Assembly: GCF_900163655.1 (NCBI RefSeq)
Contig: NZ_FWFG01000068.1
Coordinates: forward strand, 1 to 64,000
Source: Brachybacterium nesterenkovii
GTDB lineage: Bacteria; Actinomycetota; Actinomycetes; Actinomycetales; Dermabacteraceae
Reading direction: 5' to 3'
Length of the DNA stretch: 64,000 bases
Position numbers and translations under genes: made by a program. Under the pieces are notes generated by a model. The model was not told the DNA's origin, searched no databases, and was given only the letters and a program-made list of their open reading frames with translations. Every line of letters starts with the position of its first letter. The stretch's first letter is position 1. Below are positions 20,891-23,952 of the stretch, piece after piece.

Positions 20891-23062
20891 TCAGCCGAGC
20901 GTCACCCGGTGGACGAGAACGGTGAACTCCTCAGCTCCGCGCGCATCCCGGGCGCGCAGGCGCCCTCCCTCGAGCGATAGGGGCACGGCGTCGCGGGCGA
21001 TGATGCCGCCGCGGCCGTCGACGATCCCCAGGCGCAGCTCCTGGCCGTGGGCGATGGCCTCGAGGAGGCGGTCCGTCACCGAGAGGTCCTCGCCGTCCCC
21101 GGCATCGGCCTGGCGGATGCGGGAGACGGCCTCGGCGGCGGGCAGGCGGAGCTCGGGGCCCTCGACGGTCTCGAGCTCGGGCTCGACGGGGCCGCCGTGC
21201 AGGCTGTGGTCGCGCTCGTCGCGTGCGGTCAGCCCGTCGGGCCCGACGGCGATCGCCGACAGCCCCGAGCGCCGCACCATCTGCAGCACGAAGCCGGGGT
21301 CGGAGGCGGTGATCGCGACCGTCGGCGCGAGGCGCTGCAGGTGCAGGGCCTCGGCGTGCGGCGTGCCCTGGAAGAGCGTGAGGACGTCCTCGTCGGCGGT
21401 GAGGTAGGCGGCGGCGCGGCCGATGCGGATCTGCCCGTGGCGCCGGGCCTCGTCCCGCAGCAGGTACTCGAGCGTCTGGGGGACGGGGGTGCGGGAGGCA
21501 TCGCGCAGCAGGGCCAGGAGGTCGTCGCCGTCGAGGCCCGCCCCCATGGCGCGGCGGATGGTCGCCGCCGTGAAGCGCAGCGTCATCGCACCGCCGCGGG
21601 AGACGACGTCGGTCCACGGCAGGAGCGCGAGGAGGCGCTCGGAGGGGCGCCCGGGGATCGTCGCGGTGAGGTCCGCGTCCAGCAGCAGCTCATCGACCGG
21701 AGGCGGGGCCAGGGCTCTCAGCACATCGGCAAGATGCCCGTCGGCGCTCTCGACGTCCTCCTCGAGCGCGTCGACCAGGGCGGTGCCGAGCGTGGTCAGC
21801 GCTCCGTCGAGGACCACGCCCAGAGCGGTGCCCTCGACCAGCGCCGCATGCACCTCCTCGGCGAGGAGGGTGGGCGCGACCAGCGGGAACGCCCAGCCGA
21901 GGGAGGCGGCGAGCGACGCCTCGGTGGCATGGATCCCCGTCGCGGGGCGCAGCGCGCGCAGGATGCTCAGGCGCCGCGTGCGCAGGCCGTCGCGCGCGCT
22001 CGCGCTCGACAGCGCCGCGCGCGCCTGTCCGTGCTGGGGATCGGCCGGGGCCGAGGCCACGGCGAGGTGGCGGCAGCGCGCCCAGGTGAGCGCGAGCTCG
22101 GCCCAGCGCTGCTCGAGGCCGCGGGTGCGGAAGGCGTCCCAGTCGGCGGTCGGCTGCCAGGACTCGCCGTCGTGGCCCAGCAGGCCCGCGCACCAGGCCG
22201 TCTGGATCACGGTCGTGTACGTGTCGAGCGGGGCGTCGGCCTGCTGCGCCAGGCGGCGCAGGTCCCGCTGGGGGATGCCGCCGCGGCGCAGCACCGCGGG
22301 CGGGTCGTCGTCCCAGGCGCGGACCGTCCCGACCAGGCGCACGGCCTCGAACGCGGCCTCGACGGACTGGGCGTCGCGGGTCCCGGGGATGCGCTCGCGG
22401 ATCGCCTCGCCCTCCGGGAGGGGCCGGGTGATCGTGATCGCGGGGCAGACGCGGCCGCCGCGCAGGGCCAGATGCACGGGGCGGGGGATCAGGTGCAGGT
22501 CGCCGCGGCGCACCAGCACGCCGGCCTCGCCCAGGACCCGCGCGGCGGCGGAGCCCTCGGCGGCGTCGACCTTCGCAGGTCCCCAGGCGAGGCGCTCGAA
22601 CAGGGGCTCGAGCTCCGGCGGTGCCTCTCGCAGACGGCGTGCGGCCTCGGCGGGGGAGGGGTCGTCGTCGGCCTCGGGGGCCAGGCCCGCCGGGGTGCGC
22701 AGCACCTCGCGGACCGTCCGCACCGCCCGCAGCTCGCTCTGGCCCCACACCAGGGCCAGGGTGCGCAGGCGGTCGAGCACGCCGGCGATCTCCGCGGGCG
22801 TCGCGCCGACGGCCGCGGCGACATCCGCCGGGCAGGTCGGGTCCTCCAGCACGGCGAGGGCCTCGAGGACCGACAGCTCTGGGCGGGTCAGCGCACCGAG
22901 CGCCCGCTGCACGGAGGCGGCGCCGGCGGCGCGGGCGGCGAGGGGGCCGATGCCGCGGGGCACGGGCGCGGAGAGGTCCGGCCGGGCGAGGAGGAGCTCG
23001 GTGAGGCGCTCGTCGTCGAACCGGCGCAGCTCGTCCGCGAGGGACCGGGTGGGCTCGGACAT
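20891..23062 (-). CDS. Helicase-associated domain protein (partner of XPB helicase)
   Basis: A 723-residue soluble protein starting MSEPTRSLADELRRFDDERL. It has no Walker motifs. The region LTELLLARPDLSAPVPRGI, repeated winged-helix-like segments (RPELSVLEALAVLEDPTCPADVAAAVG) and a C-terminal domain with GQIRIGRAAAYLTADEDVL match the helicase-C-terminal/helicase-associated family that pairs with bacterial XPB in actinobacteria (the neighbour of ercc3 in mycobacteria). Here the two genes are about 4 kb apart with gnd and the small membrane proteins between. GGAG lies 6 nt before the ATG at 23062; TATGCT at 23072-23077 is a plausible -10, giving a very short leader. Confidence 0.85.
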   Translation of the reverse strand: MSEPTRSLADELRRFDDERLTELLLARPDLSAPVPRGIGPLAARAAGAASVQRALGALTRPELSVLEALAVLEDPTCPADVAAAVGATPAEIAGVLDRLRTLALVWGQSELRAVRTVREVLRTPAGLAPEADDDPSPAEAARRLREAPPELEPLFERLAWGPAKVDAAEGSAAARVLGEAGVLVRRGDLHLIPRPVHLALRGGRVCPAITITRPLPEGEAIRERIPGTRDAQSVEAAFEAVRLVGTVRAWDDDPPAVLRRGGIPQRDLRRLAQQADAPLDTYTTVIQTAWCAGLLGHDGESWQPTADWDAFRTRGLEQRWAELALTWARCRHLAVASAPADPQHGQARAALSSASARDGLRTRRLSILRALRPATGIHATEASLAASLGWAFPLVAPTLLAEEVHAALVEGTALGVVLDGALTTLGTALVDALEEDVESADGHLADVLRALAPPPVDELLLDADLTATIPGRPSERLLALLPWTDVVSRGGAMTLRFTAATIRRAMGAGLDGDDLLALLRDASRTPVPQTLEYLLRDEARRHGQIRIGRAAAYLTADEDVLTLFQGTPHAEALHLQRLAPTVAITASDPGFVLQMVRRSGLSAIAVGPDGLTARDERDHSLHGGPVEPELETVEGPELRLPAAEAVSRIRQADAGDGEDLSVTDRLLEAIAHGQELRLGIVDGRGGIIARDAVPLSLEGGRLRARDARGAEEFTVLVHRVTLG

Positions 23063-23164: not shown

Positions 23165-23238
23165 GCCCCCATAGCCCAATCGGCAGAGGCGGCCGCCTTA
23201 AAAGCGGCGCAGTCCGGGTTCGAGTCCCGGTGGGGGCA
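23165..23238 (+). tRNA. tRNA with anticodon UAA (Leu by codon), short variable loop
   Basis: A 74-nt cloverleaf: acceptor GCCCCCA with TGGGGGC, D arm GCC/GGC with GG in the loop, anticodon stem GCCGC/GCGGC with loop CTTAAAA, variable loop GCAGT and T arm CCGGG-TTCGAGT-CCCGG. The anticodon at 23199-23201 is TAA, which reads the rare codon UUA. Discriminator base A73; CCA is not encoded. All stems are perfect. A bacterial tRNA-Leu should have a long variable arm, but here it is 5 nt, so this is a class I body with a leucine anticodon. Which amino acid it carries is not clear from sequence. Confidence 0.9.
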
Positions 23239-23284
23239 CGCACCGGGCCAAAGATAGGGGCGCGTGCGCGTGGGCGGCGCGGCC

Positions 23285-23608
23285 TCAGGGCGCGCCGCCG
23301 ACCTCCACAAGGACGACGCCGACGATGATGAGCGCGATGCCCGCGACCATCCGCGTCGTGAGCGGATCGCGCCAGATCGCCCGCGCGAGCACCGCGACCG
23401 CGGCGATCCCCGTGGCCGTCCAGATGCCGTAGGCGACGCCGACGGGCATGCCGGATGCGAGCGCGCGCTGCAGAGCGGCGAAGGCCGCGAGGTAGCCGAG
23501 CACGACGACGATGAGCCAGCCGCGTCGCCGCAGCCCGTCGCTCGCCCGCAGCGCCAGGGTTCCGCTGATCTCGCTCGCGATCGCGGCGGCGAGCCACAGC
23601 CCGCTCAT
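23285..23608 (-). CDS. SMR-family efflux subunit, second of pair
   Basis: A 107-residue four-TM small multidrug resistance protein. The membrane-embedded proton/substrate glutamate is Glu13 in AAIASEISGTLALR. GMPVGVAYGIWTATG in TM3 and GIALIIVGVVLVEVG in TM4 are family marks. SMR proteins export cationic compounds in exchange for protons. Its ATG overlaps the stop of the upstream SMR gene by 4 bp, so the two are translationally coupled and probably form a heterodimer as in EbrAB/YkkCD-type pairs. Substrate unknown. Confidence 0.9.
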   Translation of the reverse strand: MSGLWLAAAIASEISGTLALRASDGLRRRGWLIVVVLGYLAAFAALQRALASGMPVGVAYGIWTATGIAAVAVLARAIWRDPLTTRMVAGIALIIVGVVLVEVGGAP

Positions 23609-23952
23609 GCCGCATCCGCCCGGGCGGCGGTGCGCTCGCCGGAGCCGGTCTCGACGAGCACGACGCCTGCGATGATCAGCGCGATGCCTCCGATCGCGGT
23701 CGCCCCCAGGCGCTCGTCGAACAGGACGGCGCCGAGGGCGGCGGTCAGCGCGACCCCGCTGGCGCCCCAGATGCCGTAGGCGACGCCGATGGGCATGCCG
23801 CCGCGCAGGGCGATGCCCAGCAGCGCGAACGCGGCGGTGTAGCCGAGGGCGACGACGGCCAGCCAGGCGGGGGCGTCGATGCTCGCGCGCAGGGCGAGGG
23901 TCGCGGTGGTCTCGGCGAGGATCGCGACGACAAGGGCGATCGAGGGGCGCAT
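23605..23952 (-). CDS. SMR-family efflux subunit, first of pair
   Basis: A 115-residue four-TM protein with the essential Glu14 in AILAETTATLALR, GMPIGVAYGIWGASG in TM3 and GIALIIAGVVLVETG in TM4, plus a short charged tail (GERTAARADAA). It is the promoter-proximal member of the pair. TAGCGT ends 6 nt before the ATG at 23952 and there is no ribosome site, suggesting leaderless translation of this gene and coupled translation of the next. Confidence 0.9.
   Translation of the reverse strand: MRPSIALVVAILAETTATLALRASIDAPAWLAVVALGYTAAFALLGIALRGGMPIGVAYGIWGASGVALTAALGAVLFDERLGATAIGGIALIIAGVVLVETGSGERTAARADAA

Follow-up and report, generated by a model that had tools for sequence, protein, structure and literature searches.

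The window, meaning the whole 64,000-nucleotide stretch of Brachybacterium nesterenkovii DNA that was analysed, carries at positions 23165-23238 a tRNA gene that we regard with high confidence as a genuine, conserved tRNA-Leu: the sole UUA decoder of its genome, inserting leucine, and a member of a class I tRNA-Leu(UAA) lineage which is widespread and replaces the class II form in most of the Actinomycetes sampled. We infer that the gene is expressed and its product charged by LeuRS. Bacterial tRNA-Leu is by textbook account a class II tRNA with a long variable arm; the function of the present gene is ordinary, and the exception to the class II rule lies in its class I body.

A class I cloverleaf with a UAA anticodon

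The gene was called tRNA-Leu (taa) by ARAGORN (23165-23239, + strand), and Rfam RF00005 matched 23165-23238 along its whole length (58.2 bits; gathering score 29). The gene, its parts and its neighbours are as follows:

20891-23062, - strand: divergent neighbour with a Pfam Helicase_C_3 domain (Pfam; tblastn)
23165-23238, + strand: class I tRNA-Leu(UAA) gene, whole (ARAGORN, sequence, Rfam, genus conservation)
23165-23171 / 23231-23237, + strand: acceptor stem GCCCCCA/TGGGGGC, 7 bp (sequence)
23174-23190, + strand: D arm GCCCAATCGGCAGAGGC, with a 3-bp stem, A14, A15, G18G19 and A20a (sequence, own class II tRNA-Leu genes, 131 distinct genes)
23199-23201, + strand: anticodon TAA in the 7-nt loop CTTAAAA, loop 23197-23203 (ARAGORN, sequence)
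23209-23213, + strand: variable loop GCAGT, 5 nt, whose last base, U48, pairs with A15 (trans-Levitt pair)
23238, + strand: discriminator base A73 (sequence)
23285-23605 and 23605-23952, - strand: two small multidrug resistance (SMR) genes, convergent (Pfam Multi_Drug_Res)

ARAGORN, Rfam and the sequence itself confirm the original prediction of a class I body with a UAA anticodon, a 5-nt GCAGT variable loop and A73. Its statement that all stems are perfect holds for the acceptor, anticodon (GCCGC/GCGGC, 5 bp) and T stems (CCGGG/CCCGG, 5 bp), the last two by sequence reading, but not for the D stem, which has 3 bp (GCC/GGC) with C13/A22 unpaired, as in tRNA-Leu (D-arm positions 13-26 are numbered by our own assignment). 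The anticodon sits in a canonical 7-nt loop, as in a UUA isoacceptor, and the 5-nt variable loop falls short of the arm of at least 10 nt that defines a class II structure. CCA is not encoded in the gene; ACG follows the tRNA directly on its 3' side.

The only UUA decoder, conserved across the genus

The genome (3.02 Mb, 119 contigs, 99.98% complete) gave 49 tRNA matches, and the anticodons of all of them were read. Its class II tRNA-Leu genes have the anticodons CAA, TAG, GAG and CAG only; because class II Leu(TAA) was not found among the 49 tRNAs of this 99.98% complete genome, the gene at 23165-23238 is the only UUA decoder. A dedicated UAA tRNA had been proposed, and Leu(UAA) is indeed single-copy among the 49; the normal class II tRNA-Leu(UAA) that was to be sought alongside it is absent from the genome. 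Elsewhere in the assembly (G000:C97:900-1800, L059), four tandem tRNA-Glu(CTC) genes spaced by about 135 bp are followed by tRNA-Gln(CTG).

A DNA search recovered the gene, at 85-97% identity, from 33 of the 35 genomes of the genus, a degree of conservation well past what chance would give, and also from most of the order; every relative's copy that was fetched was called Leu(taa) by ARAGORN; the alignment across related genomes suggested earlier thus revealed conservation, not its absence. The helicase-domain gene lies next to the tRNA in each of the 19 loci fetched from the genus (tblastn), and also in a Brachybacterium paraconglomeratum locus (L157) and in MT836665.1 (L051). The latter, from human faeces and deposited as "Bacteriophage sp.", carries a Brachybacterium-type tRNA-Leu(UAA) and the chromosomal helicase neighbour, and is probably a bacterial contig. 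Its 96% match was at one point considered as phage carriage, a reading dropped on account of that neighbour. The SMR pair was not seen beside the tRNA in the related loci examined; as a tandem pair it could possibly encode a heterodimeric SMR pump.

Leucine determinants are kept

Leucylation in E. coli needs A73, the A15-U48 pair, G18G19, A20a and D/T-loop contacts, and neither the sequence nor the folding of the long arm of E. coli tRNA-Leu correlates with leucylation, armless variants being still active (review, PMC9976931). Compared with that review, the bacterial LeuRS determinants A73, A14, A15-U48, G18G19 and A20a are all present in 23165-23238, and its D loop AATNGGCAGA is common to the genome's own class II tRNA-Leu (TGGCGGAATAGGCAGACGC). 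Among 131 distinct class I Leu(UAA) genes compared, A73, which the original prediction had singled out, was found in 131 and U48 in 130, both positions lying outside the search pattern; all seven acceptor pairs were kept in 128, while the acceptor-stem sequence varies by clade (GCCCCCA, GGGGGCG, GCTCCTG, GCTGGTG), and every variable loop measures 5 or 6 nt. A14, A15, G18G19 and A20a are invariant in the 131 genes, but the search patterns preset them, so that independent confirmation comes from A73, U48 and the stems only. A bacterial LeuRS model found one leuS in the genome (G000:C94, three pieces, single open frame); weaker matches below the cut-off presumably represent the related synthetases for Ile, Val and Met.

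UUA is read as leucine

The genome itself has too few UUA codons for the strongest test of decoding, which comes from a natural experiment in a relative, Actinobacteria bacterium IMCC26103 (45% GC). This streamlined organism carries class I genes for Leu(UAA), in two copies, and for Leu(CAA), its Leu(TAG) and Leu(GAG) genes being class II; a class II UAA match was not found in it. Over 96 reciprocal best protein pairs between IMCC26103 and the present genome, TTA was aligned with Leu at 396 of 673 positions (59%), and the other Leu codons gave similar values (CTT 58%, CTC 65%, CTA 56%, CTG 58%, TTG 62%). Within the present genome, the TTA site of recO is Leu in 29 of 29 relatives (CTG or CTC), that of an MFS transporter gene is Leu in 5 of 6, and that of a Sir2-like gene is Leu in 12 of 24, with Gln in 11. 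Judged by this comparative decoding, UUA is leucine. The class I tRNA-Leu(CAA) of IMCC26103 (G349, L308:3207-3280) has a re-paired D stem (CTC/GAG), and the UUA and UUG decoders of that organism are both class I.

These data weigh heavily against a misassigning tRNA, for instance one of Phe or Arg origin, that brings another amino acid to UUA. Such a tRNA had been raised originally, and would fit the class I body, the CTTAAAA loop one base off that of the genome's own tRNA-Phe, and tRNA-Arg(TCT) as the closest other tRNA of the genome (73%). We consider it highly improbable: UUA aligns with Leu at the rate of the other Leu codons in IMCC26103, where UUA is common and its misreading would corrupt the proteome, and the recO site is uniformly leucine. 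G34 (Phe) and C35/A20 (Arg) are missing from the tRNA, which has the Leu determinants, and assignment to Phe, Arg or Lys was ruled out by the codon alignment and the determinants taken together. That the gene is a functionless decayed or mobile-element copy is scarcely credible. Similar class I Leu tRNAs are known in phages and tRNA clusters, but the stems are intact, the chromosomal synteny extends across the genus, and the genome would be left without another UUA decoder; the decayed copy named at the outset as a possible refutation fails on the same three grounds. A genuine tRNA-Leu is thus retained as our reading of the gene.

UUA rarity and comparison with bldA

As anticipated for a genome this rich in GC, UUA is rare: four TTA codons were counted in the 674 genes called (0.017 per 1000; 0.88 Mb, about 29% of the genome; the gene calls are our own and may miss atypical genes), and there are none among 43,043 homology-supported codons of this genome. 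The four lie in recO, an MFS transporter gene, a Sir2-like gene and a kinase/phosphotransferase-like gene (names partly assigned by eye). Rarity of this degree, together with a single-copy and strictly conserved tRNA, would suit a regulatory tRNA of the bldA kind, in which timed tRNA supply gates a small set of UUA genes. We find this improbable, however. A GC content of 72-73% alone predicts the rarity, and the genes concerned are the four just named. At the three of these four sites that were followed up, TTA itself was kept in none of the relatives checked, so that the retention of UUA between species that marks genes under bldA control is lacking there, and the tRNA lacks the class II body expected of an orthologue of Streptomyces bldA. 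The regulatory device suggested originally is accordingly unsupported, and a conserved tRNA that simply inserts leucine at UUA is preferred.

The gene shares with class II bacterial tRNA-Leu(UAA), including Streptomyces bldA, the UAA anticodon, A73, the D-loop AA-GG-AGA core with A15-U48, and leucine as the meaning of UUA; the class II form differs in its long variable arm and in its D stem, GCG/CGC (or GTG/CAC).

Class I and class II tRNA-Leu(UAA) exclude each other across Actinomycetota

Genomes were scanned with a class I pattern (D arm plus UAA anticodon arm) and its class II equivalent, both slightly relaxed for the class-level scan. Across the phylum (296 genomes), class I Leu(UAA) was matched in 44 genomes and class II in 112; within the gene's own class (148 genomes), the counts were 86 and 21. 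The two forms never co-occurred in either scan (Fisher tests of mutual exclusion: P = 1e-10 for the phylum and 1e-9 for the class, shared ancestry being ignored). Judged by these patterns, class I is the commonest form of Leu(UAA) in the class and the one carried by most Actinomycetes sampled. Most of the 21 class II carriers belong to one family with genomes of 6-10 Mb, and their sequences resemble Streptomyces bldA. Neither UAA pattern matched 140 of the 296 phylum genomes and 41 of the 148 class genomes; the 41, which include families f95, f96, f97 (part) and f98, might possess a third kind of D arm or be without a UUA decoder.

Both states occur, in different species, within families f34 and f63 and within genera g81, g128 and g135, which implies that the class I and class II forms have replaced each other several times. 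Class I Leu(UAA) was found, among the matches listed, in Mycobacterium, Nocardia, Rhodococcus, Gordonia, Corynebacterium, Microbacterium, relatives of Arthrobacter, Amycolatopsis, Pseudonocardia, Streptosporangium, Actinomadura and Acidimicrobiia; outside the phylum, the matches listed include isolated cases such as Cylindrospermum, Moorena and a Chloroflexaceae MAG. In these three the gene lies inside tRNA arrays (of 26 tRNAs in the Chloroflexaceae MAG, L174; 26 in Cylindrospermum, L188; and 12 in Moorena, L215), and array-borne copies hint at spread via mobile tRNA arrays. Plasmid matches were mixed, several being other isotypes (Thr, Arg, Trp), with Leu(taa) in Nocardia farcinica, Arthrobacter StoSoilB13, Mycolicibacterium TY66 and M. 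intracellulare.

A broader reading, which we hold tentatively and at slightly less than even chances, is that class I tRNA-Leu forms a separate bacterial lineage, with UAA in most Actinomycetes, CAA as well in a streamlined freshwater-type actinobacterium, and UAG/UAA in phages and tRNA arrays. It would have taken over from the class II UUA decoder on repeated occasions, in part through horizontal spread, leaving Streptomyces bldA as the exception in its class. At 75 nt the sequences are not long enough for a dependable tree of ancestry, one that would tell loss of the arm from a class II tRNA apart from the remodelling of a class I tRNA.

Relation to other short-armed tRNA-Leu

Other class I Leu tRNAs are on record. 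A tRNA-Leu(TAG) with a short variable loop has been reported in a mycobacterial tRNA cluster (PMC6582537) and is likewise a class I Leu tRNA, and the class I Leu(TAA) and Leu(TAG) genes of actinophages and of cyanophage P-RSM6 have the same D arm TAGCCCAATNGGCAGAGGC. Streptomyces phage JXY1 (L071, 494-568) carries, in a phage tRNA cluster, a class I tRNA-Leu with a UAG anticodon and the D arm of 23165-23238; because UAA and UAG anticodons share leucine alone as meaning, this body supports a leucine identity. Rhodococcus phage Trina has a class I Leu(TAA) alongside a Leu(CAA) of class II. These cluster and phage tRNAs are accessory copies, whereas the gene at 23165-23238 is chromosomal and the sole UUA decoder. 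Human mitochondrial tRNA-Leu(UUR) is also leucylated without a long arm, mitochondrial tRNA-Leu(UUR) relying mainly on A73 and A14 (PMC9976931); it differs in being organellar and served by its own mitochondrial LeuRS, and no descent from it is claimed.

In the literature, bacterial tRNA-Leu is listed as class II (review, PMC7609411), Leu-2, 3 and 5 especially were described as long-armed in a study of M. tuberculosis (PMC11541572), and a human class I 'Leu-CAA' was treated as an isotype conflict in the tRNAscan-SE 2.0 paper (PMC8450103). No account of class I tRNA-Leu(UAA) as the usual actinobacterial form was found in a search of open-licence papers, with the subscription literature and GtRNAdb outside its scope. 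Genome databases no doubt list the class I Leu(UAA) genes as tRNA-Leu. The class I Leu(UAA) body is apparently under-described; we make no claim to literature priority.

Implications

The gene encodes the cell's only tRNA for UUA, which would put in leucine wherever this rare codon occurs and perhaps help at UUG too; it is one of a class I tRNA-Leu(UAA) lineage which is widespread and stands in for the class II form. In a large part of Actinomycetota the tRNA for UUA is class I, against the class II listing. This bears on how LeuRS and SerRS distinguish their tRNAs, on isotype models and tRNA-seq pipelines, which flag genes of this kind, and on the evolution of the bldA switch; it may also bear on tRNA-targeting toxins that recognise the variable arm. 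Work on E. coli mutants led to the claim that leucylation can do without the long arm, and these bacteria offer a natural test of it.
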